Source: an uncultured Coriobacteriaceae bacterium
Lineage (GTDB): Bacteria; Actinomycetota; Coriobacteriia; Coriobacteriales; Eggerthellaceae
DNA: 50,061 bases
Assembly: GCA_902768975.1 (NCBI GenBank)
Contig: CACXMZ010000010.1
Location: 1-50,061 of the forward strand
Direction of reading: 5' to 3'
In this document: positions 74 to 22,439 of the stretch, one piece after another
Layout of the letters: each line of letters opens with the position of its first letter
Numbering within the stretch: position 1 is the first letter of the stretch
Program-made: the position numbers and the translations under genes
Notes under the pieces: generated by a model
Seen by the model: the letters and a program-made list of their open reading frames with translations, nothing else
Databases searched by the model: none
Told to the model about the DNA's origin: nothing

Positions 74-733
74 ATGGGTAAGCTTCTAAGTAGGTATCTA
101 TATTCTCGCCTTAGTTTGTATGCCCTTGTTCTTGCCCTCAATGTTTCACTTTTACTAAATCTAGCAACTATTGCGCTTGGTAGTCCCGCTTTGCCGCTTT
201 GGGCCCTAATTGCCTGCGCGATAGTATTTGTTCTTCTTTTGCCACTTACTGTTAGCTTGTTTGCACGCGAGTTGAGTTCTTTTACGCTAATCAATCCACC
301 TGAAAAGCTTGGTACTAGTATGTTTTTCAAGAAAGCAAGCCTAGGTGTTGGCTATGCTTTTCTGCTTCTTGTAGTTTTTTGTACGGTATGCGGTGCCGTT
401 GGCCTGGCGGTATCCCTTACCGCCTTGCCAACTTTAGGCATTCAGAGCGCTCGTGACATTATTATGCTTGCTGCGCAAGTCCTTGCTGTGCTTGCCATTC
501 CTATTCCTGTCATGCTTCTTGTTCGTTATGTGCTTATTCGCAGGCGTGAGCATCCTGTTGTGGCTCTTTCAAGCTATAAGGGCGTGGTGTGGCCGCTTTT
601 AGCATTTGGTTCTGCAATCTTTTTTGGTGTAGGCTGGCTTCTTGCTACTTTTCTTCCAACTGCACTTTCTGGGGTATTTTGGCTCCGTATGGCTTCTCTA
701 TTGCACGATTGTATGCGTGAGCTGCTCAAGTAG
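74..733 (+). CDS. multi-pass membrane protein of unknown function
   Basis: The product is 219 residues, almost entirely hydrophobic. About five membrane segments can be seen, near residues 12-38, 40-64, 88-116, 126-153 and 168-190, with short basic loops such as RRRE between the fourth and fifth. I do not recognise a family or catalytic motif. The ATG is chosen because an AGAGGGGG Shine-Dalgarno lies 6 bases upstream, and a possible -10 (TATAAG) is at 22-27. The 3' end overlaps or abuts the start of the giant Rhs gene, so the two are probably co-transcribed. The sequence does not say whether this protein helps export the toxin or has an unrelated membrane role. It is a confident gene of unknown function. 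Confidence 0.75.
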   Translation: MGKLLSRYLYSRLSLYALVLALNVSLLLNLATIALGSPALPLWALIACAIVFVLLLPLTVSLFARELSSFTLINPPEKLGTSMFFKKASLGVGYAFLLLVVFCTVCGAVGLAVSLTALPTLGIQSARDIIMLAAQVLAVLAIPIPVMLLVRYVLIRRREHPVVALSSYKGVVWPLLAFGSAIFFGVGWLLATFLPTALSGVFWLRMASLLHDCMRELLK

Positions 734-3700
734 TGATTGCGAGATCACGGCCGACCTTAAACTTGATATAGAACTTTTACAGAGGCGCTCGCACAAGGTG
801 GCAAATAGCGCAGTGGCCTGCTTGCTTAGCGCAGCTTTGGCAATTTGTATGGTAAGTACCGATTCCATTGCTTACGCAATTGAAGTAGCCGCGGAAGCAC
901 TTGAGCAAGCTGAGGCGCAAGCGGCGCAAAACCAAGAACAAAAGATTCAAGAGCAAGGACAGGAACAGGAAGAGGGATTATCAGATTCGGTTGATGATCC
1001 ACAACAAGATAGCGAGCCAATTGATAAAGATAAGGCTCAAGAGCAAGATATTAGCGAGCCCGAAGCTGACGGGACTTCTAATAAAGAGGCAGATGCTGAC
1101 AAGACTGAAGACGAAGCAGATAAACAAGAGCCCCCAGAGCCTGTAGAGCCTGAAGACTACTATGAAGTGGAAGAGCCTGAAGGCATACCTGTTGCTATAG
1201 AAGACGAAGCCACCATCTATCAAATTGACGAGACGCACTTTACTACCATCATTGGTGGGGTGGACACAGCCTATATTGATGAAGAGGGCACAATCCAAGA
1301 AATTGACAACACACTTGAGCCTTATCGCGACGGCTCTGAGATTGTCTATGAAAATGCATCAAATGCCTTTACTGCTCAAGTACCAGCGCTAATGGACGGC
1401 AAAACTCAGGGTATTACAATTTACACGCCTGATGGCTGGCCTATAGAGCTTATTCCTCTTGACGGTAACTTTGAAACGAGCGTAGCAAAAGAAAGCGCCA
1501 TACGCTTTACAGAAGTGCGCGAACATGTCGACTATCAATACACTCTTGTTGGTTCGCTTATTAAAGAAGATATTATTCTCACCGAGCCTGTTGAGCCCCA
1601 AGAATTCAAAACCTTGCTTAACTTACCTGATGGCCTTTTGGCGGCACTTGAAAATGGCATTATCTCCATTCGTGATACAGACAACAATGAAGTCATGGCG
1701 CTCGCTGCACCTCTTATGGAAGACGACGCTGGAAAACTCTCAGATGAAGTTGAGCTTAAACTTGAACAAACAAGTCAAGGCCCCGTAATTGCTATTGAGC
1801 CGAATTGGGATTGGGTTTTATCAGACGAGCGTGTCTATCCAATTCGTATTGACCCAACGGTCAATATTGCTTCTTCTGCAGTAAGGGTTGCTTGTGTTGA
1901 GCAAAGTTGGCCCGACCTTGTTATTGGTGAAAACGGTTATGCTTACGTGGGCTTTGATGATGGTGTTAAAAGTGGTACGGGGGACTTCAACTATGGTGTG
2001 GGACATGGTCGCTGTCGCATATTTGTAGCTATCAACTATGACTTTACCTATATTATGAGTGAGGCGCGTATTGACTCAGCCACGTTTTGGCTCTACCAGC
2101 GCCGTGCGTACTCAGAGGGTAGCACCGAACTTCAACTCTACCGCATTACCCAGTCGTGGAATTTCGACAACCTTTGCTGGAATACTCAGCATGCAGGTGG
2201 CGCCACCGAGTTCGTTGATTCACAAATGGCAAAGTCAAGTCCTGGCTGGGTTGGCTGGGATGTGCGTGATGTGGTGGTTAACTGGGTGGCCGGGGCTTAT
2301 GCTCAGTACGGCTTTTCCCTCTGGGCGAAAAATGAAGGCTGGGCACAAGCTGAAATCTTTGACAACCGTTTTGATACCCATCCGCCAGAGTTTCAAATTG
2401 ATTGGTCTATTCCAGACCCCGTAGATGAAAACTATTCGCTTAATGACACTAGCATTGAAGTGCGCCCCATGGTTGAGCGCAGCAAAAGTGGACTTACGGT
2501 GTTTGACGGTGCATTTTCAGATGGTCTGGCAACGCCTCGCGCAAATGTAGATTGGGAGCTCAAGCCAGGTGACAAAAGTGGTCAGGCATATGCTTCGCGT
2601 TCCTATAAATATCCTGATTCAACTGACTTTGAAGAAAAGTTTCCCAATTCAACAAAATATCGAGACAAGCTTTCTAACTGGCAATCTGGCATGGTGGTGG
2701 GTCTTGATAAAGACAAGATTTATCACTTTGAAGCGACGGCAAGTCTTGATGGGCAGGTGGGCAATACTGCCAAATCAGATACGTTTTTGGTTTACACCGT
2801 AAAAGCAACTGATACGCTTCCTTCTGTAGCAAGCTACTATGGTGTGCCCTTAAAGACTATTGCCAAAGACAATAAAGTACAGGATATGCTCATTGTTAAT
2901 GGCGAAACTTTATTTGTAAGAAACCCCAAGACAAGCAAAGCTTATTCCCCTAAGAATCTTTCAACTGACCAAAAGAAACAAATTGACTCAGCGCTTATTG
3001 GCCGAGGTCTTCACTGTGAATATGGCTTCGAGCCTGTCAATATGAACACAGGTAACTTTGTACTTGAAGCAGTAGATGCCACCATTCCTGAAACTGAAGG
3101 TAGCTTTGACTTAAGTCGTACCTATAACTCTAAGGCGGTAGCCTCACCTTCTGCTTTTGGACGTGGCTGGTCATTTGCATGGGGGGATAGCCTTTCAAAA
3201 ACTGAAGACGGGCAGTATGTCTATGCGGCATCTGATGGCAAAGTCTTATTCTTTGAAGCGCAAGGTGACAGTTTTTCTTGTGCGCTTAACCCAGACCTTG
3301 AACTAAAGGTCATTAAGAAAAAAGATAAGCCAGACACTTACGTCATTGAATCGCGTGATGGTAGTGCTATGGCTTTTAATGCCTGGGGACTTCTTGAGTC
3401 AACTACTTCACCTCTAGGGCTTAAAACTACTATCAAGCGCAATGAAGAGATGCAGGTAGAAAGTGTTAGCTCTCCTAATGGTTATAGCTACTCATTTGAA
3501 TACGGTGATTTTGGGCTTATTAAGCAAGCAACACTTCCTGACGGCACAACGCTTAAGTATGCCTACGACGATGACGCAAACCTTGTATCAGTAACAGATC
3601 AGTGTGGTGGCGTGGTGACGTATACCTATGACGGGGCTGGTCTGATGAAGGCGTGGTACGACGCTGATGGCAACCTCGTCTGTGAAAACACCTATGACAA

Positions 3701-6700
3701 AGACGGGCGCGTTACTGCCCAACTTGATGGTAACGGGGGAGTATCGAGCCTTAGCTATTCAGAGGGTCAAACACAAGCAACGGATGCCAATGGCAATACG
3801 ACTGTCTATACCTATGACAGTCTTATGCGCACTACAAGCATTACCTATCCTGATGGCTATGTGGCCACAAAAGCATATGATGGCAACTCTAACTTAATCG
3901 AAGATGACGGCTGGACCTATACGTATGACGAACGTGGTAATTGCACAAGCAAAACGTCCCCTGATGGTATCAGCACTACTTATTCTTTTGATGACAAGAA
4001 TCGTATTTTGCAAACTGTCTATGCCGATGGTGAAGTAGTTGCCAATACGTACAACGATGCTGGCGACTTAATTGAAGTAGCAAGTTCAACAGGGGCTCGC
4101 ACTTCTTATTCTTATGACAACATGCACCGCAAAACGAGTGAAGTAGACGTTGATGGTGTGAGCTTAAGTTATACCTATACAGGCTCCCAGGTGGCAAGCA
4201 TGACAGATGCGCTTGGCAATACCGCGAGCTTTAGCTATGACCAGATGGCGCGCAACACCTCAGCTACCGACGGGGCTGGCAATACAACGTCAATTACCTA
4301 TGATGCCTGTGGTCGTATTGTTGCTGAAACTGATGGCGCAGGAGCTACCACAAGTTATGCGCTTACCAAGGCAGGTCTCGTGTCTGCCATTACTGACGCT
4401 AACGGCAACACTACGTCTTTTGGCTATGATGCCATGTATAACGTCACGTCTATGACAGACGCTGCGGGCAATAGCTCCTCAATCACCTATGATGCGCTCA
4501 AAAACGCACTAAGCGTTAGTTCGGCAACAGGTGCGCAACTAAGTTACGCCTATGATGCGCGCAGTAACCTTATCTCTATAGTTGATGCTAACGGCAATGA
4601 AACCGTGCGCACCTACGATGCCCACGGCAATGTAACAAGTGTGACCTATGCCAATGGCGCTACGCAAAGTATTGCCTATGACGCAACCTTCTTTAAGCCC
4701 ACTAGCACAACCGATGTTTTGGGCAACGAGCAAACCTATGTCTATGACGCACGCGGGAATCTTACCTCTACTACCTTGCCCAACGGCGCAACTATTCAAT
4801 ATACAATTAACCCAGGCTCTCAACTTGCAGCTACGACAGATGCACGTGGTACCACAACAAATTATGCCTACACTACAGCAGGCCGTGTCAGTGAAATAGA
4901 CGTCGCTGGCAGGGCAGCGTCTATTGCCTACGATGCTTCAGGAAACATTGCAAGTATTACTAATGAACTTGGTCTTGTTACAAGCTTTACTTACGATGGC
5001 GCTGGACGCATGCTGAGCATGACCGATTCTGAGGGGCGCACGACAAGCTATGCCTATGATGGCGCAGGCCGCCTTATCTCAGAAACCGATGGTGAGGGTA
5101 ACACGACGACATATACCTATGATGGGCTAGGAAACCTCACTAGCACAACCGATGCTAATGGCAATACGACTACCTATGTTTACGACGTACTTGCTCAGCT
5201 TATTTCCCAAGTAGATGCCTTAGGTGGCACACAAAGCTTTAGCTATGACGCTGGTGGCAACCTCATTAGTGCCACTGATGAGCGTGGCAATACTACAAGT
5301 TATACCTATGACTTAGTTGGCAATCGCTTGAGCGAAACTGATGCTGCAGCAAGCACCTGGAGCTATACCTATGATGCTATTGGAAATGTGGTGGGCACCA
5401 CACTTCCTACGGGGGAAGTCGAGACTGCCACTTATGACGCTGCGGGCAATATGCTTACGCTTACCGATGCCGCAGGTCTCTCCTTTGAGATGACCTATGA
5501 CGAGTTGGGCAACCTTACTTCAATTACAGATTCGTATGGAGCGCATGAAACCTATACCTACGATGAAGTTGGCAACGTAATAGCTGAAACTGACTCGCTC
5601 GGTAGACAGGCAAGCTATACCTATGACGCGTGGGGCCAGCTTATAGAAGAAACAGGTCTTGATGGTGCAACGACTTCCTATGAATACGACGCAGCCGGAA
5701 ACCTCTTGTCCACAACTGACGCGCTTGGCGCCAAAACCAGTTATACCTATGACGGCTCTAAGAACGTTGTAAGCGTAACTGATGCGCTAGGAGCTAGCAC
5801 ACTGTATGAATACGACAAGGCAAATCGCTTAACGAAAGAAACCAATGCGCTTGATGCAAGTATTACCTATGGCTATGACCCGGCAGGAAACATTGTTGGT
5901 CTCACTGACGAAGATGGCTATGAGTGGGCCTATGCATTTGACGCATTAAACCGCCTTGTCCAAGAAACAAATCCCTTGGGTAATGCAACGGCGCTTACCT
6001 ATGATGCCACTTCAAACATTACCTCAATTACTCGTCCTGAAGGTGATGTGTCAAGTTACACCTACGATGCACTGGGCCGTCTCATAAGCACAACCGATGG
6101 CACAGGAGCTACGTGGTTAGCAAGCTATGACGCTTATTCAAATGTAGTAACATCAACTGATCCTTTAGGTGCTACCACCACTAATACCTACGACTTGCAC
6201 GGAGCACTTTTAAGCTCCACAGATGCGCTCGGAAATGCTACCACCTACACGGTGGATGCCCATGGCAATACGACTTCGCTTACACGTGCAAATGACTCAA
6301 GTTATACCTATGCTTATGACGTAGCTGACCGCCTGACAAGCTTAGAGACTCCTTTAGGTTATATTCGCAGCCTTGAGTATGACGCGGCAGGCAATGTTGT
6401 CAAAGAATCAGATAACTTAGGGCGCCTGCAAACCTATACGAGTGATGCGCTTCATAACTTAACTCAAGTAACTGATGCCAAGGGTGGCGCGTCCACTTAC
6501 ACCTATGACCTTTTAAGTCAGCTTACGAGCACAACTGACGCTCTTGGCAATAAGACTAGTGTGACGTATGACCCGCTAGGCCGCATTACCGCTATCCGGG
6601 ATGCTCAAGAGGGTAATACTTCTATCCAATACGACAACCGTGGCAACATCCTTCGGCAAATCACTCCTGAAGGTCGCTTTACTACGTATTCTTACGATGG

Positions 6701-9700
6701 GGTAGGAAATGCCATAAGTGCCTCTGATGGCTTAGGTAACACCTATAACTATAGCTATGACAAAAACTCTCGATTAACCGAAGTAACTGACCCGTTAGAG
6801 CATGTGCAAGCAAAGCTTGTTTATGATGCTACAGATAACATTACAAGCGTCACTGATGCATTAGGCCATGCAACAAGCTATACCTATGATGGGCTAGGAA
6901 ACACCACAAGCATTACTGATGCTTCAGGGCATACTACCACCTATACCTATGACGTGCTTGGCCAGCTCACAAAGGCGGAGCTTCCCAGTGGAGCTGCTAG
7001 TACTTATACCTATGACGTGGTGGGAAACCTCACTTCTGTAACTGATGCACTGGGCAACACTACAAGCTATGCCTATGATGCAGAAGACAACCCCATCTCA
7101 AAGACAAGCCCTGCGGGTGCTATCGAACAAATTGAATATGACCTTGCAAGCCGCGTGAGCACCATTACCGATGCAGCTGGCAACGCCACCCGCTACTCAT
7201 ACGATGAGCTCAACGAAGTGGTTGAGAAATCCTATGCAGGGCCTACAACTGATGAGCCGGTACTCTACACCTATGATGCACTCTCACAAATGACAGGACG
7301 CGCTGATGCAACAGGTAAGGCAACACGCACCTACGATGAGCTTGGGCGCACCATAGAAGAGACAGATGGGGCAGGCAATACCTTAAGCTATGCCTACGAT
7401 GCTGATGGCAATCTTTCCAAGGTAAGCTACCCCGATGGGGAAGTGGCAAGCTACACCTACGATAAGGCAGGAAATCTCACAGAAGTTAAAGCATCAGATG
7501 GTACCTACACCTATGAATATGATGCTGCCACCAACCCCATCAAGCTTACCCGCCCTGATGGCTCAACGACAACCTACGCTTATGATGATGCCAACCAAAT
7601 AACTAAGCTTGTCAACACTGATGCAGCTGGCAAAATCATATCAAGTTATGCCTACACCTACGATGAAGTAGGCGACATTGTCAAAGAAGACATTCAAGAA
7701 ACAGATACACAAGGCAAACTTACCAAAGCAAAGCGTACCTATACCTATGACGATGACAGTCGCCTTATTAGCTTTACCGAAGAAGGGGATGCGGGCAAGC
7801 TTTCTCGCGCTTACGAATATGATGATGTTGGCAACCGCACTCGCGAAATCCGTGAAGATGATACGGGCAAAGACATAATCACCTATGCCTATAACGACGA
7901 CAATATACTCATTGAGGCTAAGAGTACGGTAGGCGGCACCACAACCTATGCTTATGACGATGCCGGCAAACTCACTTCAAAGCAAGTAGATGGCCAAGAA
8001 GAGATCACTTATGAGTATGGTGTCGAAGAGCGCCTTGTTGCTGTTAAAGAAGGTGGGCGTCTGGTAATGGCTGCCACCTACGATGGTGACTCTAATCGTG
8101 TCTTTCAGATGAGTAGACATCGCACCATCACAGTTGACCCAGAGACCAAGTCCCTTCCCAAGACAGCAGATACACCTACTCTTATTACTTTTGCTATTGC
8201 CATGGGCGCTGTTTCTGCCTTAGGCTTGGGAAGCCCTGCTGCAGTGGCTTCTGGCGCTAATGCGGTAGCAGCTCTTTTCTTCCCGCTTGGCCCGACTGAT
8301 TCAAGTTTTCCTGTATCTGATAAGGACGTAAAGACATATGCCAACTCAGCTCTTCGCAATGGCTGGGGCACTATACCGCTTTCTCGCATTCATGTAGAAA
8401 CCGACTTTGAGTCTATTGCTTATGTCAACTCAAGTCTAGGCGAAGTCACACAGGTCTTTGCCCAATCTAGTAGCTATACAGGGGCTTCTAACCACCTATA
8501 TGGGCTAAGTCGTCTTGCAAGCATTAATAGTGGCACGTCCACCTATCACCTACTTGATGGTCGTGGTTCAACGACGGCTGCTATCCAGGGCACAAGTGTT
8601 ACTGCCAACTATTCTTGGGGGGCATATGGTGAGCTTCTTCGTGGTACGTATACCGAGTCGCCCTTCTATGGATATGATTCAGAAGACTATAGCCCCGCCA
8701 CCGGCACTCTCTACCTGCGTGCTCGCTATCTTAATATGACAGAAGGCTCATTTGGGGTGGAAGACTCCTATCTCGGCGACACCTTTACACCCCAATCCTT
8801 AAACCTTTATGCCTATGCATATGGCAACCCTGTCAGTTATGTGGACCCCACAGGACATTGGGGCCAGTGGTTTAGCAATGTGGTAAGTGGCGTTAAGTCC
8901 TTTGCCTCAAATGTTGTCTCGTCAGTTAAAAGCTTTGCGACAAGTGTCTACAACACGGCAAGATCTGTCGCATCATCTGCCTATACGGCTGTGAAAAATA
9001 CTTACAACGCGGTTAAGAGCTGGGCTACCTCAACGGTTAGCTCATTTACGAATTCATACCGAGCTACTACTGTGCGGGCAGCATCAACCTATATCTCTTC
9101 GCAGCAATCCTATGCTTCGTCGGGCGGTTCATATTCTTATAATCCTGTATCGGCTGCGCAAGCAGGTATCTATAGCTTGTTTACTCCAGTTGCGGCTAAA
9201 GCCCTTAACTTTACGGTTGGCTTTGCGCAAAAGATTTATGAGAGTTGTTGTGTTGGCAAGCAATACCTCAAAGACCATGCCGAAGAAGCAAAGACCATTG
9301 CTCATACTGCGCTTGATGTTGTAAGTATGGTCCCTCTTGTAGGAACTGTTGCAAGTGGCATTAATGCAGTGTGGTATGCCGCAGAAGGCGACTATGCCAA
9401 CGCAGGTCTTTCAGCTGTATCTATGATTCCAGGCGTTGGTACAGCAGTTAAGGGTGGCACACTGGCAGTGAAAGCTACGAGTGCTGCTATGAAGCTCGCA
9501 CCTACCGCTGCCAAAGCCATTTCAGGACTTGTTAAAGCTGCTCCTAAAGTTACTTCTGGCATTTCAGAGGCTATTTCAAATACCGTTTCTGTTGTTTCAG
9601 GTGTGAAGAGGGTCGGCAATGCCGCAAAAACTATTTCACCTTCAGTAAATCAAGCAACGCAGTCCATTAAGAAGAAAAGCATTACCGAGAAGCGAATTGA

Positions 9701-10043
9701 AATACTGGCTCAAAATAGGGCGAGAGGTAGGGCATATGAAATCGAGAAGTTTAGTGACTTAAGGAGCCGCATCGCCAATGCCGAAGAGCAGATTACTCTT
9801 GTAACCCCTTCAGGCGGTAGAGTAAGAGTTGATGGTATTGCTCAAAAAGCAGACGGGACTATCGTTATCGAAGAATATAAATCCTCGCCAACAGCATCTT
9901 TGTCAAAAAATCAGGAGAGGGTTTTTGAACAGATTCGTATAGAAGGCGCACGAGTTGTTGGAAAAGGGAAAGGTGATATCTTTACAGAGGGTTTTGAGAT
10001 TCCTCCTGGAATAAAAGTCAGAGAGATAAGACCAGGTAGTTAA
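717..10043 (+). CDS. giant secreted WapA/Rhs-type polymorphic toxin
   Basis: A protein of about 3,100 residues. Order by nucleotide position: signal-peptide-like segment (hydrophobic core near 805-875), Glu/Gln-rich low-complexity stretch (895-1200), WapA-like N-terminal region with a DNRLRE-like module (about 1860-2405), LysM-like module (about 2790-2925), DUF6531-like start of the Rhs shell (about 3010-3290), YD repeats (3481-8115), LPKTA followed by a hydrophobic stretch (8154-8230), Rhs core ending in YVDPTGH near 8860, then a variable tip. The last ~120 residues have VDG...EEYK, the D...ExK arrangement of PD-(D/E)xK nucleases, so a DNase tip is likely. Family knowledge: WapA-like proteins are Sec-exported and deliver C-terminal toxins to neighbouring cells. 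The start is uncertain. GTG717 keeps basic residues (RRSHK) before the hydrophobic core, while GTG798 has a better Shine-Dalgarno (AGAGG). A TTG at 642 is open but unlikely. Immunity-like genes follow directly. Confidence 0.9.
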   Translation: MSCSSSDCEITADLKLDIELLQRRSHKVANSAVACLLSAALAICMVSTDSIAYAIEVAAEALEQAEAQAAQNQEQKIQEQGQEQEEGLSDSVDDPQQDSEPIDKDKAQEQDISEPEADGTSNKEADADKTEDEADKQEPPEPVEPEDYYEVEEPEGIPVAIEDEATIYQIDETHFTTIIGGVDTAYIDEEGTIQEIDNTLEPYRDGSEIVYENASNAFTAQVPALMDGKTQGITIYTPDGWPIELIPLDGNFETSVAKESAIRFTEVREHVDYQYTLVGSLIKEDIILTEPVEPQEFKTLLNLPDGLLAALENGIISIRDTDNNEVMALAAPLMEDDAGKLSDEVELKLEQTSQGPVIAIEPNWDWVLSDERVYPIRIDPTVNIASSAVRVACVEQSWPDLVIGENGYAYVGFDDGVKSGTGDFNYGVGHGRCRIFVAINYDFTYIMSEARIDSATFWLYQRRAYSEGSTELQLYRITQSWNFDNLCWNTQHAGGATEFVDSQMAKSSPGWVGWDVRDVVVNWVAGAYAQYGFSLWAKNEGWAQAEIFDNRFDTHPPEFQIDWSIPDPVDENYSLNDTSIEVRPMVERSKSGLTVFDGAFSDGLATPRANVDWELKPGDKSGQAYASRSYKYPDSTDFEEKFPNSTKYRDKLSNWQSGMVVGLDKDKIYHFEATASLDGQVGNTAKSDTFLVYTVKATDTLPSVASYYGVPLKTIAKDNKVQDMLIVNGETLFVRNPKTSKAYSPKNLSTDQKKQIDSALIGRGLHCEYGFEPVNMNTGNFVLEAVDATIPETEGSFDLSRTYNSKAVASPSAFGRGWSFAWGDSLSKTEDGQYVYAASDGKVLFFEAQGDSFSCALNPDLELKVIKKKDKPDTYVIESRDGSAMAFNAWGLLESTTSPLGLKTTIKRNEEMQVESVSSPNGYSYSFEYGDFGLIKQATLPDGTTLKYAYDDDANLVSVTDQCGGVVTYTYDGAGLMKAWYDADGNLVCENTYDKDGRVTAQLDGNGGVSSLSYSEGQTQATDANGNTTVYTYDSLMRTTSITYPDGYVATKAYDGNSNLIEDDGWTYTYDERGNCTSKTSPDGISTTYSFDDKNRILQTVYADGEVVANTYNDAGDLIEVASSTGARTSYSYDNMHRKTSEVDVDGVSLSYTYTGSQVASMTDALGNTASFSYDQMARNTSATDGAGNTTSITYDACGRIVAETDGAGATTSYALTKAGLVSAITDANGNTTSFGYDAMYNVTSMTDAAGNSSSITYDALKNALSVSSATGAQLSYAYDARSNLISIVDANGNETVRTYDAHGNVTSVTYANGATQSIAYDATFFKPTSTTDVLGNEQTYVYDARGNLTSTTLPNGATIQYTINPGSQLAATTDARGTTTNYAYTTAGRVSEIDVAGRAASIAYDASGNIASITNELGLVTSFTYDGAGRMLSMTDSEGRTTSYAYDGAGRLISETDGEGNTTTYTYDGLGNLTSTTDANGNTTTYVYDVLAQLISQVDALGGTQSFSYDAGGNLISATDERGNTTSYTYDLVGNRLSETDAAASTWSYTYDAIGNVVGTTLPTGEVETATYDAAGNMLTLTDAAGLSFEMTYDELGNLTSITDSYGAHETYTYDEVGNVIAETDSLGRQASYTYDAWGQLIEETGLDGATTSYEYDAAGNLLSTTDALGAKTSYTYDGSKNVVSVTDALGASTLYEYDKANRLTKETNALDASITYGYDPAGNIVGLTDEDGYEWAYAFDALNRLVQETNPLGNATALTYDATSNITSITRPEGDVSSYTYDALGRLISTTDGTGATWLASYDAYSNVVTSTDPLGATTTNTYDLHGALLSSTDALGNATTYTVDAHGNTTSLTRANDSSYTYAYDVADRLTSLETPLGYIRSLEYDAAGNVVKESDNLGRLQTYTSDALHNLTQVTDAKGGASTYTYDLLSQLTSTTDALGNKTSVTYDPLGRITAIRDAQEGNTSIQYDNRGNILRQITPEGRFTTYSYDGVGNAISASDGLGNTYNYSYDKNSRLTEVTDPLEHVQAKLVYDATDNITSVTDALGHATSYTYDGLGNTTSITDASGHTTTYTYDVLGQLTKAELPSGAASTYTYDVVGNLTSVTDALGNTTSYAYDAEDNPISKTSPAGAIEQIEYDLASRVSTITDAAGNATRYSYDELNEVVEKSYAGPTTDEPVLYTYDALSQMTGRADATGKATRTYDELGRTIEETDGAGNTLSYAYDADGNLSKVSYPDGEVASYTYDKAGNLTEVKASDGTYTYEYDAATNPIKLTRPDGSTTTYAYDDANQITKLVNTDAAGKIISSYAYTYDEVGDIVKEDIQETDTQGKLTKAKRTYTYDDDSRLISFTEEGDAGKLSRAYEYDDVGNRTREIREDDTGKDIITYAYNDDNILIEAKSTVGGTTTYAYDDAGKLTSKQVDGQEEITYEYGVEERLVAVKEGGRLVMAATYDGDSNRVFQMSRHRTITVDPETKSLPKTADTPTLITFAIAMGAVSALGLGSPAAVASGANAVAALFFPLGPTDSSFPVSDKDVKTYANSALRNGWGTIPLSRIHVETDFESIAYVNSSLGEVTQVFAQSSSYTGASNHLYGLSRLASINSGTSTYHLLDGRGSTTAAIQGTSVTANYSWGAYGELLRGTYTESPFYGYDSEDYSPATGTLYLRARYLNMTEGSFGVEDSYLGDTFTPQSLNLYAYAYGNPVSYVDPTGHWGQWFSNVVSGVKSFASNVVSSVKSFATSVYNTARSVASSAYTAVKNTYNAVKSWATSTVSSFTNSYRATTVRAASTYISSQQSYASSGGSYSYNPVSAAQAGIYSLFTPVAAKALNFTVGFAQKIYESCCVGKQYLKDHAEEAKTIAHTALDVVSMVPLVGTVASGINAVWYAAEGDYANAGLSAVSMIPGVGTAVKGGTLAVKATSAAMKLAPTAAKAISGLVKAAPKVTSGISEAISNTVSVVSGVKRVGNAAKTISPSVNQATQSIKKKSITEKRIEILAQNRARGRAYEIEKFSDLRSRIANAEEQITLVTPSGGRVRVDGIAQKADGTIVIEEYKSSPTASLSKNQERVFEQIRIEGARVVGKGKGDIFTEGFEIPPGIKVREIRPGS
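3481..8115 (+). repeat. tandem YD (Rhs) repeats inside the toxin gene
   Basis: This coding stretch consists of back-to-back units of about 20-21 codons built around a Tyr-Thr-Tyr-Asp core (TACCTATGAC-like at DNA level) followed by Gly-Asn-Leu/Val and Thr-Asp-Ala. Length divided by period gives roughly seventy units. YD repeats form the beta-strand shell of Rhs/Tc cages that encloses the toxic tip. Neighbouring units share short near-identical DNA runs, so recombination between them and assembly collapse are both plausible. Confidence 0.9.
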
Positions 10044-13448: not shown

Positions 13449-13868
13449 ATGGCAACAATATATTTTAAGGTATCAGACTCTTTTTATGAAGTGGGGACAC
13501 CTAGTTATCTTTACTCCTTCTTTTCTACCGTTGCAAAAAACCTTGAGTCTAGCGACTGGGGTTCACGATTCCCCGTATTAATGCATGATTTTTATTTTGA
13601 TCAATTGTTGCCACAACAAGTTGATGATTTGTATGATGAACTCATAATCGTTACAAAAGAATTAAAGCAATATGGACCAGGAAAAGTAGTATGGGATTTT
13701 GAAAATCCCAGTAAGCTTCCACCTTGGGGCAATGATATAAGTAGCGATATAACGGATTTGTCAAACTATTTCGTAACCAGTGATGGCAAAGACTTTCTAA
13801 CTGTATTACGGAAGGCTCTTGAGGAAGCAAAGATAAAGTCTTCCGAAATAGTTATTGAACTGATATAG
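13449..13868 (+). CDS. Imm70-family immunity protein (orphan)
   Basis: A 139-residue soluble protein. Features I associate with the Imm70 family are V-G-x-PSYLYSFFST near the N-terminus, GSRFPVLM near residue 38, WDFENP and PPWG near 80-95, and DLSNYFVTSDGKD near 105. It begins 22 bases after its divergent paralogue. Imm70 proteins neutralise C-terminal toxin domains of polymorphic toxins. No toxin gene adjoins it, so it probably guards against tips carried by other strains or left from a displaced cassette. Family assignment is from memory of the motif pattern, not a search. Confidence 0.65.
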   Translation: MATIYFKVSDSFYEVGTPSYLYSFFSTVAKNLESSDWGSRFPVLMHDFYFDQLLPQQVDDLYDELIIVTKELKQYGPGKVVWDFENPSKLPPWGNDISSDITDLSNYFVTSDGKDFLTVLRKALEEAKIKSSEIVIELI

Positions 13869-14823: not shown

Positions 14824-14851
14824 ATTGTTTTGTTATTAGGTGGTAATTTAC

Positions 14852-15952
14852 ATGGATAATAGTATTAAAGATGACATTTTTTCCCTCGAAGAGGAGAAAT
14901 TATTCGTAGAGGCGGATAGTCCGGAAGTTCCTCCAGCTGACATTGTAGCTTTTTCGGAGTTGCGTTCTGTCGCCGATTTAGCACGGATGCGCTCTAATGG
15001 GCAGTTGGTAATTGACCCAGATTTTCAACGGGAATTTGTTTGGAGGTCTCCTGAGCAGACGCGGTTTATAGATTCTCTAATTAAGCAATTACCTATTCCT
15101 AGTATATGTCTCAGTCTTGATTATAAAACTCAGACATGGCAGGTTATTGACGGTCTTCAGAGGATATCTACGGTGGTACGGTTTTTAGATATCAGCAGCG
15201 GGTGGCGTTTATCGAGACTTGATGATATCAATCAAGATATATCAGGACGCTTGGTATCCGAGTTTTGCGACGATGGTACTCAGCTAGGGATGTATAGAAG
15301 AATAGTTGAGAATACAACTATTCCCATCAATGTGTTGCGCTGCGATTATTCCAATGTTGAGCATCAAAATTATATATTTGAGATTTTTCACAGGCTTAAT
15401 TCCGGCGGAAGGCCTCTTTCAAACCAAGAGATTAGGAATTGTATATACTCAGGGTCTTTTAATACGCTCATTAATACTCTTAACAAGAACGAGAAGTGGC
15501 TTCGTGTTAGCAAATTGAAGACACCTGTTTCGCATAGATATAAGGGTCAAGAAATGATACTGCGCTTTTTTGCTTTCTTTGGTTCATACGAAGAATACAC
15601 TGGAAGGTTGGCCAAATTTTTAAATACTTACATGAGCGAGCATAAAAATGAGAGTTCAGATTGGCTGAATGGCAGAGAGGAAATTTTTAATCGTACTATT
15701 GACGTAGTCAATGATTCGCTTGGAGAAGAGGCGCATGGCAAGTCTCTCGCATTATTTGAAGCATTTCTTGTCGGAATTGCACGAAACATAGAAAGGGCCG
15801 AGGGCCTGCCGGTAGGCAGGCTGCAAAGTGGCTTTGCCGAGCTCGATCAGTCTCCAGTTTTTAGCCAGGAAAGTCTTAGTGAGGGGCTAGCTTCACGTGA
15901 AAAGCTGGTTGCTAGGCTGAAGACAGCAGAGCAGGTAATAAGAAATGTTTGA
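14852..15952 (+). CDS. DUF262 (GmrSD-N / ParB-like) protein
   Basis: A 366-residue protein with DUF262 hallmarks: IDPDFQREFVW near residue 54, IDGLQR with D100 and R104 (the DGxQR nucleotide-processing motif of the ParB/Srx-like fold), and an FHRLNSGG block near 180. DUF262 forms the N-terminal half of the type IV modification-dependent enzyme GmrSD and is frequent in antiphage systems, where it binds or hydrolyses nucleotides. The usual DUF1524 HNH nuclease domain is absent, so the nuclease must be supplied in trans. ATG14852 follows AGGTGG; an in-frame start 12 bases earlier has no ribosome site. The stop overlaps the HEPN gene by 8 bases, which implies translational coupling. Confidence 0.85.
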   Translation: MDNSIKDDIFSLEEEKLFVEADSPEVPPADIVAFSELRSVADLARMRSNGQLVIDPDFQREFVWRSPEQTRFIDSLIKQLPIPSICLSLDYKTQTWQVIDGLQRISTVVRFLDISSGWRLSRLDDINQDISGRLVSEFCDDGTQLGMYRRIVENTTIPINVLRCDYSNVEHQNYIFEIFHRLNSGGRPLSNQEIRNCIYSGSFNTLINTLNKNEKWLRVSKLKTPVSHRYKGQEMILRFFAFFGSYEEYTGRLAKFLNTYMSEHKNESSDWLNGREEIFNRTIDVVNDSLGEEAHGKSLALFEAFLVGIARNIERAEGLPVGRLQSGFAELDQSPVFSQESLSEGLASREKLVARLKTAEQVIRNV

Positions 15953-16469
15953 TTCCGAAAGAATCAGTCAGCGACTGCAGAGCCTTAATGAACTATATAA
16001 TGATGCATTCGCCGATAATCTTGAGTTAGCAGAGCTATATTCGAAGATTGCAGTTATTGAACTTGGAGGTTGGTCAGAAGAAGTGAGAGACTATCTTTCG
16101 TTACTTCTTTTCAACAAAATATACTGCGATAGTTCAAATGAATATTACAGTAAAATGTTTGAAAGACCGGTTTCTGGATTTGATTATAAAAAGCACTTTA
16201 GAAATCGAGTCTTTGAGAAAATGATTGGCGTTCATGGCGCTGATGAAATTGAGAGATGTATTGATACTGGCGTGTTGGAACAGTTTCGGGGTGCGCTTGG
16301 GCAGCTTTGGGAAATGCGAAATAAATGCGCCCATCAAACGCTTGAGAACACAATGGGAAGTCAGCAAGCTCCGTCAATGACAATTAGTCAGTTTGCTAAG
16401 ATTAGGCGCGGATTCGAAGAGTTCGAAAAAGCGATTGATTCTCTGGAGCGCGTGGTTATAAGACTTTAA
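15945..16469 (+). CDS. HEPN-like nuclease partner of the DUF262 protein
   Basis: A 174-residue all-helical protein. It carries R125-N126-K-C-A-H130, the Rx4-6H signature of HEPN ribonucleases (usually RN-x(3)-H), placed between two long helices as expected. It resembles the MAE_28990/MAE_18760-type HEPN proteins often paired with DUF262, which I know from general annotation rather than from a search. The ATG lies inside the end of the DUF262 gene (8-base overlap), so the two proteins are probably made in fixed ratio. An AAAGTT-N5-AACTTT hairpin at 16509-16525 follows the gene but lacks a U-run. Confidence 0.75.
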   Translation: MFDSERISQRLQSLNELYNDAFADNLELAELYSKIAVIELGGWSEEVRDYLSLLLFNKIYCDSSNEYYSKMFERPVSGFDYKKHFRNRVFEKMIGVHGADEIERCIDTGVLEQFRGALGQLWEMRNKCAHQTLENTMGSQQAPSMTISQFAKIRRGFEEFEKAIDSLERVVIRL

Positions 16470-16617: not shown

Positions 16618-16643
16618 TGAAAAGTGGCAGTTTTAAAAGTGCT

Positions 16644-16672
16644 TTACAGTCTCACAAAATAAGCTTATATAT
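16644..16672 (+). promoter_or_regulatory. promoter firing into the invertible cassette
   Basis: TTTACA (16644-16649), a 17-base spacer and TATATA (16667-16672) lie just outside the left inverted repeat, predicting transcription from about 16679. Whichever end of the cassette sits here would be transcribed. In the present orientation that is the ATP-grasp gene. Confidence 0.7.
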
Positions 16673-16693: not shown

Positions 16694-16726
16694 ATGATAA
16701 TCAGCAGTTATCGGAGGTTACGTGTG
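16694..16726 (+). repeat. left 33-bp inverted repeat (recombination site, SD and start)
   Basis: Identical to the reverse complement of 19299-19331. It contains GATAA-TCAGCAG-TTATC (16696-16712), a typical crossover core with an asymmetric 7-bp spacer, then GGAGG (16713-16717), six bases and GTG (16724-16726), where identity ends. Just outside, ATCTACC is also shared with the right side apart from a 1-base length difference. Confidence 0.9.
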
Positions 16727-17866
16727 GCTCCAATTATTTACATAGGACGATATGCTAGTGATATTTATAGGAGCAACCTATTTTCGGGCTCTATTGTTTT
16801 CCAGGGAATTACGAATCGAAATAAAGGGGATTTTTCCTATTGTTATGACCACAAAAGACTTGTTGAAAGCAATGAGGATAAAGAAGAAAAAACAGCTTAT
16901 ATAAGAGATAGAATTAATTATTTTCTTCACTATAACCCAGAAACACGATTTATGTTTTTCGCCCAAAACTATTTTGAAGAGTTTCTGCCGGATTTAGACA
17001 GAAACTTATTTGTAGGCCTAAATGAAAAGTCAATTAATAGCCTGCTTGATTCAAAAGTTTTTTCACGTTTATGGATGAGAAACTACGTTCCGTCCCTCCA
17101 CTATTACGTAACTACATATGCAGATGTATCGATTAAAAGAATTAATCAGGTTTTTAATAAAAGCAATGCTTTTATTATTCAAGCAGATAACGGGCGCGGC
17201 GGTGATGGATCGTATATATTCCGTAACACAAGAGAGCTCGATTCCTTTATGAAAAATACGCAAACTTCAAAGGTGCGGTTTTCAAGAATGATTGTCTCAC
17301 CATATTACGAAGACTCTATACACATCAATCAACATATCATAATTTTTGATTCCTTGATTATAGCTCTCCAGCCCTCAATTGAAATATTAGTCGAAAAAGA
17401 ATGCCGACTTCACTATTTAGGCGCCGACTATGCGCAGTTCAACGATTGGGATCAAGCTGTTCAAGCAAGAAAAGATATTAATAAGAAGAGCGTTTCTATT
17501 GCCAAGGCAATGCAGAGGGCAGGATTTAAAGGAGTAGCTGGCATAGACTATCTATACACCAATAATGAGCTATTCTTTATCGAAATTAACCCTAGATTTC
17601 AGGGCTCAAGCCCATTGCTATCTTGGGAGCTGTCAAAGAAAAACCTCCCAGACTTATACATGCTCAACTATCGTGCTTTTACTAATAAACCTCCCAGTAA
17701 TAACGAGAAGGATGAGCTTGAACGGCTGGTATTGAATAAAAAAATTGAAAAAATATACGGTGACCCTGAACGTGCCAATGCTGCAACCATAGACAAACTA
17801 GATGGCGCGCTAGAAGAGTATTTGTATTGCTCTCCGAACGCTCGGCTTGGATACAGAATTACTTAG
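16724..17866 (+). CDS. ATP-grasp ligase, expressed arm of the inverton
   Basis: A 380-residue protein with an ATP-grasp fold: a nucleotide-binding loop near residues 150-165 (QADNGRGGDGSYIF), a central domain, and the metal-binding EINPRFQGSS motif near residue 286. It therefore likely ligates a carboxylate to an amine or thiol with ATP; the substrate is unknown. It resembles peptide- or natural-product-modifying ATP-grasp enzymes more than a primary-metabolism member. GTG16724 is preferred because GGAGG lies 6 bases upstream. An in-frame ATG at 16694 would add ten residues encoded by the repeat but has no ribosome site and only a ~15-base leader. The C-terminus overlaps the opposing gene by 8 bases. 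Confidence 0.8.
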   Translation: MAPIIYIGRYASDIYRSNLFSGSIVFQGITNRNKGDFSYCYDHKRLVESNEDKEEKTAYIRDRINYFLHYNPETRFMFFAQNYFEEFLPDLDRNLFVGLNEKSINSLLDSKVFSRLWMRNYVPSLHYYVTTYADVSIKRINQVFNKSNAFIIQADNGRGGDGSYIFRNTRELDSFMKNTQTSKVRFSRMIVSPYYEDSIHINQHIIIFDSLIIALQPSIEILVEKECRLHYLGADYAQFNDWDQAVQARKDINKKSVSIAKAMQRAGFKGVAGIDYLYTNNELFFIEINPRFQGSSPLLSWELSKKNLPDLYMLNYRAFTNKPPSNNEKDELERLVLNKKIEKIYGDPERANAATIDKLDGALEEYLYCSPNARLGYRIT

Positions 17867-19301
17867 GCAACTCATCGCTATGCTGCTGCAAAGAGCTTTT
17901 GTTATGAGGACTGATATCCACGATGAATAACGGGGTATTATACGGATAGGCTTTTGAGAGCTTCTTATCGAGCGCCATAACAACGCCCGCAGCAATTAGA
18001 TTATCCAATATTGAGCTGATATGGGATTGTATTGAGTCAATATTGCTACACACGATGTTGAATAGTATCGGATTAAAAATCAAAACAGCGTCACTTGGCA
18101 AAAGATTTTGAAGTATCTCGAAAAAGATTAGTATCTGTTCTGGAGAAAGCAATGGGATAATACTTGTAAATAAAAGCGAGTTCGTGCTTCTACGTACCTC
18201 AAAACTAATTCCCTGCTCCTCCAGCTCGCTAATAATCCTTTCTTGCAATTCTTTATAGTTTTCATTTTCTTCTGGATACAGCTCAGCATCAAATGATAGG
18301 AGTGCAGGACCTTTTTCTCCATAACGAATCCTTAAAGCATCACGAATAGGCTCAATGTATGAAAAACCGAGGAGAACACGCGAACGAGCAAAACTATTAT
18401 TCGATTGTGCGGTACTCACAATGGACTGGGTAATAATGTTTAGTAGTCTGGAACGCATTTTGCTATCCACGCTGCTATTCGGTATATTATTCAACAATTT
18501 CGCAAGCAGCTCTGCCCTCCTGTATTGGCCATGCAGCGCGAAAGATTGGAACGCCTCAAAAAGAATGTCATCAGGAATTGCTTCATTTAAAACAATATGC
18601 GTATTGAACAAAGGAAAATACTCCCATGCTTCCCTAAACTGATCTTTGTATTCCCCTAATACCGACACTATTTCGTTTCCAGTACAAGGGTTTTGCTGTT
18701 CTGCAACAAAACTAATGCCATTACAAGATAAAAGGTATTGCGCCGAATAAGAATAAAGGGTCTGGCGCAGTGATAACTCGCAACTTTTGAATGTGCAATT
18801 TATGAATGTTGAATAATCAAAGGCCATATCTCTCATAGAGCATGACAAAAAAGAACACTCGTCAAAAATAGCCTCTTCGAAGACTGTATGAAGGAATGAA
18901 GAGTTGGCAATTTCGCAGTTATAAAACCTCGTACCCACAAAATCGCAGGTAACAGCAGATATGTTCGATATTTTGCAATTTACGAAGCTTGCGTAATTGA
19001 AAAAGCAGGATTCGACGCCGCCGCTAAATTTTATATTGCAATTCGAAAAAACTGTATGTTGCATATTAGAGTCCAAGAGGGCAACATCTTCAGAGGATAA
19101 AGTAATAGAGCAGTCGGAAAACACCGCACCTGTACAAGATATTCCAACAATGCGGCCTGAAATATCACAATTGATTAGTGTCATTCCCGAATAAACATTA
19201 CCGCGTACATCAATGTCGCTACCATATTCAATTCTTGCCCCGTCTAATTCCACACGTGGATGATACTTTGCTCCACATAGTTGTGATAAATCAAGACTCA
19301 C
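17859..19301 (-). CDS. pentapeptide-repeat protein, silent arm of the inverton
   Basis: A 480-residue protein. Residues about 20-190 have irregular pentapeptide repeats (A-x-F-x-x-C / S-x-F-x-N-C style, unusually cysteine-rich), which would fold as a right-handed quadrilateral beta-helix. Residues about 200-480 are helical with no recognised motif. GTG at 19301-19299 lies 6 bases after GGAGG inside the right inverted repeat, exactly as for the ATP-grasp gene, and an ATG 30 bases upstream is also in frame. The flank beyond the right repeat has only a poor promoter candidate on this strand (TATAAG without a fair -35), so the gene is probably off here and on after inversion. Function unknown; pentapeptide proteins include DNA mimics and defence sensors. 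Confidence 0.75.
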   Translation of the reverse strand: MSLDLSQLCGAKYHPRVELDGARIEYGSDIDVRGNVYSGMTLINCDISGRIVGISCTGAVFSDCSITLSSEDVALLDSNMQHTVFSNCNIKFSGGVESCFFNYASFVNCKISNISAVTCDFVGTRFYNCEIANSSFLHTVFEEAIFDECSFLSCSMRDMAFDYSTFINCTFKSCELSLRQTLYSYSAQYLLSCNGISFVAEQQNPCTGNEIVSVLGEYKDQFREAWEYFPLFNTHIVLNEAIPDDILFEAFQSFALHGQYRRAELLAKLLNNIPNSSVDSKMRSRLLNIITQSIVSTAQSNNSFARSRVLLGFSYIEPIRDALRIRYGEKGPALLSFDAELYPEENENYKELQERIISELEEQGISFEVRRSTNSLLFTSIIPLLSPEQILIFFEILQNLLPSDAVLIFNPILFNIVCSNIDSIQSHISSILDNLIAAGVVMALDKKLSKAYPYNTPLFIVDISPHNKSSLQQHSDELPK

Positions 19302-19331
19302 ACGTAACCTCCGATAACTGCTGATTATCAT
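19299..19331 (-). repeat. right 33-bp inverted repeat
   Basis: Perfect reverse complement of 16694-16726, with the same core, GGAGG and GTG on the minus strand. It ends 57 bases before the start codon of the recombinase gene. Confidence 0.9.
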
Positions 19332-19388: not shown

Positions 19389-20297
19389 ATGCGGCTAAAC
19401 TATAATCATGTTGTTGCTTTTCTTGATTACTGCCAAAAAGAAAAATGTTTAAGCTTAAATACTATTCGTGCATACAGAAACGATTTGAATCATTTCTTTG
19501 AATGGCTGAGAAGTGAAGAGCATTGTAACGTTTGTGATAGCGTTTCCTCATTGTACTTAAAATACTTGAATGAGCATTATTCTCCTAGAAGCGTAAGGCG
19601 AAAGATGGCATCTTCATGTGCAATGTTTAACTATCTTATCGATGCTGGGTCGCTCAATCTGAATCCGTTTTTAAGGGTAAATTATAAGATTTGCATGCCG
19701 CGTATGCTTCCTAAAACAATCTGTATGGGAGATCTTGAGGCGCTCTTCTCTTTTGTTAAATGGCGACACGATTCCTTGTATACTCGAGATAAGGCAATTA
19801 TTGAATTATTGATTGCAACAGGTCTTCGAGTTTCAGAATTAGTTGCTCTTGATGTATCGGACTATGATTCCAAGACGAGCACATTGAGAGTGTTTGGTAA
19901 GGGATCTAGGGAGCGCGTCATCCAGGTTGAGAGTAATGCTGCGATTTATTCACTAAAGCATTATATGGGTATATGTGACAATCGGCTTGGGGTTAACTGC
20001 GATAGGCCGCTTTTTTTGAATCGATTTGGAAAACGCTTAAGCGATAGGGCGGTACGCGATATTGTTAACAAGCGCGCTAAAGAAGCTGGTGTTCAAGCGC
20101 ATATTACTCCATATATGTTTCGCCATACATTTGCAACCCTACTCTTGGAGGAAGGAGTTGATGTACGTTATATACAGCATTTTTTAGGGCATAGCTCTAT
20201 TAAGACAACGGAAATATATACTCATGTCTCTGTGGCAAAGCAGCGTGAAGTGCTCCGTCTGCATAACCCGCGTAACGTAATTAATGGAGGGAGTTAA
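19389..20297 (+). CDS. tyrosine recombinase, probable invertase of the adjacent cassette
   Basis: A 302-residue XerC/D-like site-specific recombinase. The N-terminal SAM-like core-binding domain (residues 1-85; LDYC...NTIRAYRNDL) is followed by the catalytic domain with R147 in ATGLRVSEL, R245 in YMFRHTFAT, H268 in LGHSS and nucleophile Y277 in TEIYTHV. The first His of the HxxR box is Tyr here (YMFR), a substitution I believe occurs in some family members. ATG19389 has GAGGAGGT 6 bases upstream; an in-frame ATG at 19338 has none. Adjacency to the 33-bp repeats makes it the obvious invertase. A truncated relative lies at 11300-11510. The 269 bases downstream (20298-20566) hold no feature I can support. 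Confidence 0.9.
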   Translation: MRLNYNHVVAFLDYCQKEKCLSLNTIRAYRNDLNHFFEWLRSEEHCNVCDSVSSLYLKYLNEHYSPRSVRRKMASSCAMFNYLIDAGSLNLNPFLRVNYKICMPRMLPKTICMGDLEALFSFVKWRHDSLYTRDKAIIELLIATGLRVSELVALDVSDYDSKTSTLRVFGKGSRERVIQVESNAAIYSLKHYMGICDNRLGVNCDRPLFLNRFGKRLSDRAVRDIVNKRAKEAGVQAHITPYMFRHTFATLLLEEGVDVRYIQHFLGHSSIKTTEIYTHVSVAKQREVLRLHNPRNVINGGS

Positions 20298-20566: not shown

Positions 20567-21589
20567 ATGGATGACAGGTTTGCAGATCTATCACCGATTA
20601 CACTGTATGAGTACGAAACGATAGGTTGTTTAGCATTCAGCTTTTTTAATCCTTTTAAAAACAGGGAAATTAGGGAGGACATGGGATTGCCCCAATACGA
20701 TTGTATTACCCCATTTTCTGGTCTTGAATTTATACAATACCTAGAAAAGATTATTGGCGGAGACTACGAAAGGAAGATACATAAGATAAAAAAGATATTG
20801 AAAATGATGGAACATGCTGGGCTATTAACGCATCAAGGGCGCCTAGCAAATGCAATATTTGGAGATTGCTATTATGCTTTGAAGGAGCTAACGCATCTTC
20901 AACAAGGTAATATGCTTTGGCTGGGCGAAGCGTTCGGCATTTCATTTTTGCAGAAAATACTTGAAGGGAATGTTGTACATATTACGGGCGTCAATAGTCA
21001 AGGTGAGATTGGGAATGGAACAGGTTTTCTGCTTAATAATAAAACCGTTCTTACATGTAAGCATGTAATTGCCGATATGACCCCTAATAAACGATTGGAA
21101 ATTCAAGGAAATGATTATGCGTATGAAACTTACTCTTCTAAAGAATTAGATATTGCTGTATTGGTTCTTGATGGAATTGTCGATGGAGCAAAGGTATTCC
21201 CTGTTTTTAATGATGTTGATGTACTCGATGAAGTATTAGTTATGGGTTACCCTCCTATACCTGGATCAGATAGAGATTATCTTTTATCGCAAAGGGGAGA
21301 GGTGAACGCTATTGTTTCTAGCTACTTGAATGGAGCTAAGAATCTTGTTCTTTCATCGGTGACAAGACCGGGAAGTAGTGGTGGGCCAGTAATATCGCGG
21401 GATGGTTATCTTGTTGGAATGGTAGTACAGCAGAACAGTTTTGAGCAGTCTATCGGCCTTGATTTACCAAGTATTGATAGGCACATGCATCACTCTTCAT
21501 TTTATTTGGCCGTGGAAGGAAGAAATCTTTTTGATGAGATAAAAAAGATTTCTCCAGAAATCGACATTTACTTTGAAGATTATAGATAG
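20567..21589 (+). CDS. trypsin-like serine protease with helical N-terminal domain
   Basis: A 340-residue protein. Residues about 1-130 are charged and helical, including a possible winged-helix-like stretch (KMMEHAGLLTHQGRL). Residues about 135-320 form a chymotrypsin-fold protease with H166 in TCKHV, D195 in ELDIAVL and S271 in RPGSSGGPV, so a complete catalytic triad. There is no signal peptide, so it should act in the cytoplasm, unlike secreted housekeeping HtrA proteases, and no PDZ domain is seen. Cytoplasmic trypsin-like modules are known in bacterial defence and conflict proteins. The Shine-Dalgarno is a weak GGGGG run. It stands alone between the recombinase and a gene on the opposite strand. 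Confidence 0.8.
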   Translation: MDDRFADLSPITLYEYETIGCLAFSFFNPFKNREIREDMGLPQYDCITPFSGLEFIQYLEKIIGGDYERKIHKIKKILKMMEHAGLLTHQGRLANAIFGDCYYALKELTHLQQGNMLWLGEAFGISFLQKILEGNVVHITGVNSQGEIGNGTGFLLNNKTVLTCKHVIADMTPNKRLEIQGNDYAYETYSSKELDIAVLVLDGIVDGAKVFPVFNDVDVLDEVLVMGYPPIPGSDRDYLLSQRGEVNAIVSSYLNGAKNLVLSSVTRPGSSGGPVISRDGYLVGMVVQQNSFEQSIGLDLPSIDRHMHHSSFYLAVEGRNLFDEIKKISPEIDIYFEDYR

Positions 21590-21650: not shown

Positions 21651-22439
21651 CTATAAATTAGTAGATACATTATCAACATGAGATTCGAGAGTCTTTAACA
21701 GGATATCGTTTAAATAAGCCTGAGGATTATCATCGGCACCATAAAATACACCTTCAGCAAATACTGATTCTGAAAACTGTTCCTGCAGATAATTATGTGT
21801 TGATGCACTACTGGAGAATCCTTCAATTATGTTAGAAAAATTTGAAGAAGGATTATTGCTGTTATGCGCCATTAGGATTAAGTCTGATTCGCCGCGTTCG
21901 CGTGAAGATCCATTAGTATTAAAGTATGTTGCATAGCTAAAATTGCTTGACCCAATTACAATAGCGTTCACCTGGATATGTAGTAGCCATTGTTTGGCGT
22001 CGTCAAGCGTTAAAGACATGCTTGGATAATATATTGTAGGTGCTAAGTTCTTGTTTCTATAAGAGTAGATAAAAATCATTTTTCGATGATCTTCAGAAGC
22101 ATTCTTTAAATGAAAAACCGGACCATAAGATAGTGGGCATGTAGCACTATTTATTTTTTTTTCGTGGCACGACAAACGATTGAAATAATCCCCTTTGCCC
22201 ATTCCGCGTAAGAAGCCTATGGAGTAGTGATTCCTAAATCCATTTGTGGCTGAGGCCAAAGAATCAATAAAACTATCTGTGGTGTTATATGTTGCCGATA
22301 AGAACCCAGGAGAGACAAGAAGATTATTTGCGCCTTTCGTCATGGTAAGTATTGCCCCAATCGCTTCTGGAAGGGGGCTAGGATAGGAAGAATGTCCGCC
22401 AGGTTTCTGGAGATACCATAGGTACATTTTTGTGGTCAT
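21651..22439 (-). CDS. possible PLD-like protein, function uncertain
   Basis: A 262-residue product starting at ATG22439, preceded by AGAAGGAAG; an upstream in-frame start at 22493 has no ribosome site. About residue 150 onward contains H-x-Q-V-N...VIGSSNFSYATYF...ESDLILM, which resembles the second half of phospholipase D-like nuclease domains. The expected HxK lysine is not present, so it may be inactive or a different fold. No signal peptide. The gene is convergent with the protease gene and divergent from the toxin-antitoxin operon. Alternatives are a restriction-like effector or a wholly unknown protein. Confidence 0.55.
   Translation of the reverse strand: MTTKMYLWYLQKPGGHSSYPSPLPEAIGAILTMTKGANNLLVSPGFLSATYNTTDSFIDSLASATNGFRNHYSIGFLRGMGKGDYFNRLSCHEKKINSATCPLSYGPVFHLKNASEDHRKMIFIYSYRNKNLAPTIYYPSMSLTLDDAKQWLLHIQVNAIVIGSSNFSYATYFNTNGSSRERGESDLILMAHNSNNPSSNFSNIIEGFSSSASTHNYLQEQFSESVFAEGVFYGADDNPQAYLNDILLKTLESHVDNVSTNL

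Follow-up and report, generated by a model that had tools for sequence, protein, structure and literature searches.

The window (the whole 50,061-nt stretch of DNA that was analysed) contains a low-GC island (38-41%, compared with 53-58% to its right) in which a 2.6-kb segment is enclosed by inverted repeats. This segment consists only of two alternative genes and a common leader. Directly upstream of it (14840-16469) lies a defence gene pair resembling PD-T4-2 A/B, encoding a GmrSD-N and a HEPN protein and matched by PADLOC, and the island also holds a gene for an NYN protein. The island further encodes a 3,133-aa RHS-repeat protein (642-10043); small genes follow, among them one for an Imm70 immunity protein (13449-13868). 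Directly downstream of the recombinase gene, at 20567-21589, is a gene for a trypsin-like protease that has additional sequence at its N-terminus and resembles the proteases of defence systems. The features of the segment and its surroundings are:

16643..16671, plus strand: candidate fixed promoter TTTACA-N17-TATATA (consensus match), outside the segment on the left
16694..16726, plus strand: left inverted repeat, comprising the core, Shine-Dalgarno GGAGG (16713-16717) and GTG (16724-16726)
16696..16712, no strand: left 17-bp recombination core GATAATCAGCAGTTATC / GATAACTGCTGATTATC, half of a genome-unique pair; motif also present at relatives
16724..17866, plus strand: ATP-grasp ligase-like gene (Pfam; fold similar to biotin carboxylase/PurK), facing the candidate promoter in the assembly
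17859..19301, minus strand: pentapeptide-repeat protein gene (Pfam; homologs at loci L126, L131, L136 and L070)
19299..19331, minus strand: right inverted repeat, comprising the core, Shine-Dalgarno and GTG start
19313..19329, no strand: right 17-bp recombination core GATAACTGCTGATTATC, the other half of the genome-unique pair
19389..20297, plus strand: Xer-type tyrosine recombinase gene, proposed invertase (Pfam, alignment and tree; residues R147, K171, Y242, R245, H268 and Y277)

Repeats, promoter and arm genes

The two repeats (33 nt each, 2,572 nt apart) are 100% complementary, and by simple counting we estimate the chance of a perfect 33-bp inverted pair in 50 kb at about 1e-11. Such repeats around two convergent genes had been noted in the first-pass annotation of this DNA, and both elements were confirmed, the open reading frames matching Pfam families. 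Read inward from either end, each repeat is composed of a dif-like, near-palindromic core of 17 bp, a Shine-Dalgarno sequence and a start codon (ATGATAATCAGCAGTTATC-GGAGG-TTACGT-GTG). The GTG, six bases 3' of the Shine-Dalgarno sequence, forms the last three bases of the repeat and is in frame with both genes; identity between the arms ceases exactly there. The starts, earlier placed at outer-end ATGs, are more likely GTG 16724 and GTG 19301, each closing its repeat. The convergent open reading frames share 8 bp at their 3' ends and fill the segment from arm to arm, whereas a promoter inverton would carry an outward promoter within it. The segment is instead bounded by inverted recombination sites, as in inversion switches of tyrosine recombinases, and its convergent genes have their leader and start within the repeats, as in whole-gene swaps of the Mu G or Ureaplasma type.

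The core occurs twice in the whole 1.89-Mb genome, both times in the repeats, and it resembles the central portion of dif sites (ATAA...TTAT). It is also close to the XerC repeat of Ureaplasma, ATAATTTAAATTATC (PMC3599477). A candidate third core at position 21720 of the window (a match to CTGAGGATTATCATCGG) was rejected, the other half-site being absent. The exact repeat had no match in the genome contig and viral contig collections.

A promoter had also been proposed to the left of the segment. The sequence TTTACA-N17-TATATA is indeed present there, but in so AT-rich a stretch its agreement with the consensus does not exceed chance (z 0.44; 12 promoter-like sites in the region, 13.4 expected). 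The case for it thus rests on position and on relatives. It lies on the same side of the core, and at a similar distance, as the conserved promoter-side flank of related S. salivarius plasmids, and in both it is at the opposite end from the recombinase. Across the relatives, the mean promoter z within 80 bp outside the cassette is 1.37 at one end versus 0.14 at the other, and the arms themselves have no promoter enrichment (0.02 and 0.38). Extended -10 elements, for example TGTGGTAAAAT and TTGGTATAAT, occur from a few to about 25 bases ahead of the core in relatives.

The product of the promoter-side gene matches ATP-grasp_3 (3e-8) and CPSase_L_D2 (1.8e-7), and that of the opposing gene matches Pentapeptide_4 (2.7e-8), its predicted structure being of low confidence (pLDDT 57). 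Neither protein matches an anti-phage system catalogued in PADLOC. Among 138 genomes of its own family, a search for close relatives of the ATP-grasp protein recovered only the protein itself; close relatives of it were not found in plasmids or viral contigs, nor was the pentapeptide protein found in plasmids.

The first-pass annotation regarded the two proteins as unrelated. However, the pair is present in three Clostridia invertons (L126, L131 and L136), in which the ATP-grasp relatives carry a fused radical-SAM domain (L131, 1e-40; L136, 3e-37; L126, 5e-33) and the opposite arm encodes pentapeptide relatives (L131, 2e-11; 97% probability and E 1e-10 in profile comparison). This recurrence indicates that the partners are not arbitrary, and we describe them as a conserved pair. 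The promoter-side arm encodes the pentapeptide protein in L131, where the promoter is strong, and in L126, where it is weaker, unlike the window, where it encodes the ATP-grasp protein. Thus, both states of the pair are seen, in different species. In L136, ambiguous bases (N) occupy positions 5850-5926, just within the left arm of the ATP-grasp/pentapeptide cassette, possibly reflecting mixed orientations in the metagenome.

Recombinase family and cassette inversion in relatives

The gene to the right of the segment encodes a tyrosine recombinase, as originally called (Phage_integrase, 1e-41). Relatives with 38-47% identity are found in its own order and at 80 loci of named genomes, mostly from Lachnospiraceae and other Clostridia but also from Collinsella, Enorma, Desulfosporosinus, Paenibacillus and Arcobacter. 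At 48 of these 80 loci the recombinase gene has the motif GATAAY-N5-RTTATC no more than 700 bp away (0.02 expected by shuffling); beside 28 further tyrosine recombinases from the host's family, the Eggerthellaceae, it never occurs. A complete inverted pair of cores surrounds a cassette at 25 of the 80 loci, nearly always enclosing two convergent transcription units. Relatives from IMG/VR with an identity of about 31-33% (L159-L165) have no core, and the signature therefore belongs to the nearer clade. In the recombinase tree, the window protein groups with relatives from Coriobacteriia, within the core-associated clade.

Related switches occur widely among gut bacteria and often carry genes of virus-defence type. 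Most of the cassettes examined have an enzyme on one arm and a defence-type protein on the other, and partner pairs are conserved across phyla. In addition to ATP-grasp with pentapeptide, the recurring pairs are GT2 with a TIR-like protein, AAA-STAND with SHMT or an aminotransferase, AAA-STAND with a D-Ala-ligase-like ATP-grasp protein, a kinase with TIR, and ThsA with a ThsB-like TIR. The window copy is a member of a widespread class of invertible cassettes that can be swapped and that mostly combine an enzyme with a defence-type protein. Variants of the layout also occur. Two Collinsella-type loci (L052:10321-16240 and L069:11240-14540) have a sister recombinase next to convergent genes whose inverted repeats are long (over 70-122 bp) and extend into an apparent signal-peptide region; several sister contigs terminate within this repeat, and the two loci are probably a form of the switch that acts on surface proteins. 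At L073:6404-10224 and L126:10932-16895, two or more core-like sites stand in tandem in the arms, which suggests multi-site shuffling.

Inversion is directly visible in this recombinase family. Two plasmids of Aliarcobacter cryaerophilus, pACRY43158 and pM830MA, carry one 3,458-bp cassette at 99.9% identity in opposite orientations:

L142:6942-10399 versus L144:969-4425, opposite orientations: inverted Aliarcobacter cryaerophilus cassette

The flanks on both sides, 99.9% identical, are not inverted; the breakpoints coincide with the 17-bp repeats, and the recombinase WP_105918336.1 is encoded in both plasmids. The long AAA gene of the cassette is annotated as two open reading frames in L144. 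The TIR cassettes of L076 and L091, homologous to each other, likewise have opposite orientations relative to their homologous recombinases. Contig ends fall within 60 bp of a core in 16 of 77 cases in the family, nine of them within 5 bp, compared with 1% for random positions. Breaks at cores are the outcome expected of an assembler when a sample holds both orientations, and other causes are possible.

The same sites also border exchanged cassettes. Aliarcobacter faecis has the backbone of the A. cryaerophilus plasmids with a different cassette, and five streptococcal plasmids have a common recombinase, PezAT and promoter flank around three different two-gene cassettes, with breakpoints at the repeats. 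Thus, the sites seem to serve exchange as well as inversion. The S. salivarius platforms have repeats made up of core, Shine-Dalgarno and start codon; their cassettes vary, between constant flanks on the promoter side and the recombinase side. The streptococcal megaplasmids L145, L149, L150, L151 and L152 have one promoter-core / core-recombinase-PezAT platform.

A proposed two-state switch and its alternatives

We consider it likely, from sequence comparison, that the locus is a two-state DNA-inversion switch in which whole genes alternate behind a fixed outside promoter. The recombinase encoded at 19389-20297, or a relative acting in trans, would recombine the inverted 17-bp cores and flip the 2.6-kb segment. 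The promoter would remain outside on the left while the repeats supply the ribosome-binding site and start codon, so that in each orientation a common promoter, leader and start codon would be joined to a different whole coding sequence: that of the ATP-grasp protein in the assembled orientation and that of the pentapeptide-repeat protein when flipped. Judging from the genes that accompany such cassettes, the role may be a heritable either/or choice, bet-hedged or timed, between two stress or anti-phage proteins. The assembly presents one orientation, and we infer inversion of the window copy and exclusive expression of its genes from the relatives. A swap of whole genes was already proposed in the first-pass annotation; relatives lend it strong support through the core site, the recombinase family, the cassette seen in both orientations and the conserved flanks, and one catalytic residue of the window recombinase is unusual.

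That residue is the catalytic His-II, which is Tyr242 in the window protein (codon 20112-20114); each of the 94 relatives and 28 controls compared has His at this position. The recombinase may therefore be slow or dead, and the switch could be locked: the class would invert, while the window copy would be frozen in the state that always expresses the ATP-grasp gene and never the pentapeptide gene. The uniqueness of Y242 favours this reading, as does an assembly that continues through the locus without a break. We nevertheless hold it to be unlikely, since the remaining catalytic residues, the two open reading frames and the arms are intact, the arms retaining 100% identity over their 33 bp. 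The substitution is a single C-to-T change in the codon, which could be an assembly error. In addition, pNOB8-type archaeal integrases naturally have a YXXR motif (PMC8371274), and activity of a Y242 recombinase is therefore possible.

The Thoeris-like relatives bear on what alternation would achieve. At L077:5934-9749 and L083:10962-13326, the inverton has a single promoter, which lies outside, and its two arms encode ThsA (SIR2-STALD) and a ThsB-like TIR respectively; the two would thus not be driven by this promoter together. The window cassette is not itself Thoeris, but these genes sit in the same kind of inverton. Thoeris needs both parts, and these two loci, whose arms encode parts of one system, therefore fit simple alternation poorly. 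What would fit them is a system that is whole only immediately following a flip. To our knowledge, Thoeris genes have not been described as inverting, and the ThsA of L083 was not found in viral contigs.

By extension, the arms could generally form one two-part system that works only in just-flipped cells, the old protein persisting as the other starts. The Thoeris arrangement and the conservation of partner pairs across phyla speak for such timed activation; against it, both arms are inherited together in the cassette, so that a pairing can persist mechanically. We regard it as a doubtful explanation. Equally tentative is the proposal of a widespread class of exchangeable immune cassettes with two states, between which inversion deliberately divides the partners of one defence system (ThsA and TIR, and probably ATP-grasp and pentapeptide), the full system being present only after a recent flip.

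Less probable still is that the locus serves mainly as a platform for cassette exchange, its sites acting to take up two-gene cassettes and pass them between elements, with inversion as a by-product. The constant backbones and differing cassettes of the Aliarcobacter and S. salivarius plasmids, with breakpoints at the cores, are what such a platform would leave. However, the repeats are inverted and supply each of the two convergent genes with a ribosome-binding site and a start codon, an arrangement required only if the genes take turns behind a promoter, and in A. cryaerophilus a cassette has flipped between unchanged flanks. It is very improbable that the locus is a common type of promoter inverton or a mobile element with terminal repeats that simply enclose two genes and exert no control over their expression: short terminal inverted repeats beside a recombinase also occur in mobile elements, but here the recombinase lies outside the repeats, the repeats end at start codons, the arms of relatives lack promoter enrichment and a relative's cassette has flipped in place.

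Significance and relation to known systems

If the two-state switch operates as proposed, phase variation gains the whole-gene alternation of defence-type genes, and hidden heritable heterogeneity of the anti-phage state is predicted in clonal populations. The modular platform (promoter-core / cassette / core-recombinase) extends over Bacillota, Actinomycetota, Campylobacterota plasmids and phage contigs, and offers a simple sequence signature for finding such switches. A two-part system such as Thoeris split across the arms is a puzzle open to direct test. A literature search, the largest inversion catalogues apart (Milman et al. 2023 may include some of the loci), returned no description of the recombinase-site class, of Thoeris cassettes in such invertons, of an exchangeable platform or, in agreement with the first-pass annotation, of an ATP-grasp/pentapeptide inverton. 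Gene content, modular cassette exchange and breadth thus appear undescribed.

Whole-gene switching has precedents in Ureaplasma XerC and the phage Mu G segment. In the latter, alternative convergent gene sets are flipped by Gin behind a fixed outside promoter; unlike in the window, the recombinase is a serine recombinase, the genes encode tail fibres and a common N-terminus lies outside the segment. Like the proposed switch, pneumococcal hsdS inversions driven by PsrA (PMC7096588, PMC4948785) use a tyrosine recombinase and inverted repeats to alter the coding sequence behind a promoter, but they swap specificity domains of one protein family by intragenic recombination. The window has no hsdS, the arms being ATP-grasp and pentapeptide genes, and the segment is thus not an hsdS shufflon. 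The RecV switches of Clostridioides difficile (PMC5386303, PMC5903667) also combine a tyrosine recombinase, short inverted repeats and phase variation, but mostly invert short upstream regulatory segments rather than whole genes, with one recombinase for several sites. In Ureaplasma, the UU172 element and the mba locus are inverted by XerC (PMC3047005, PMC3599477). As in the window, the recombinase is of Xer type; the inverted repeats contain ATAATTTAAATTATC, close to the GATAAY-N5-RTTATC core, and two opposed open reading frames are alternately expressed behind one putative promoter, as proposed for the window segment. The Ureaplasma repeats, however, lie within coding sequence or spacer, surface antigens are switched and the xerC gene is elsewhere, whereas the window has repeats that stop at the start codon, an adjacent recombinase gene, and arms encoding ATP-grasp and pentapeptide proteins.
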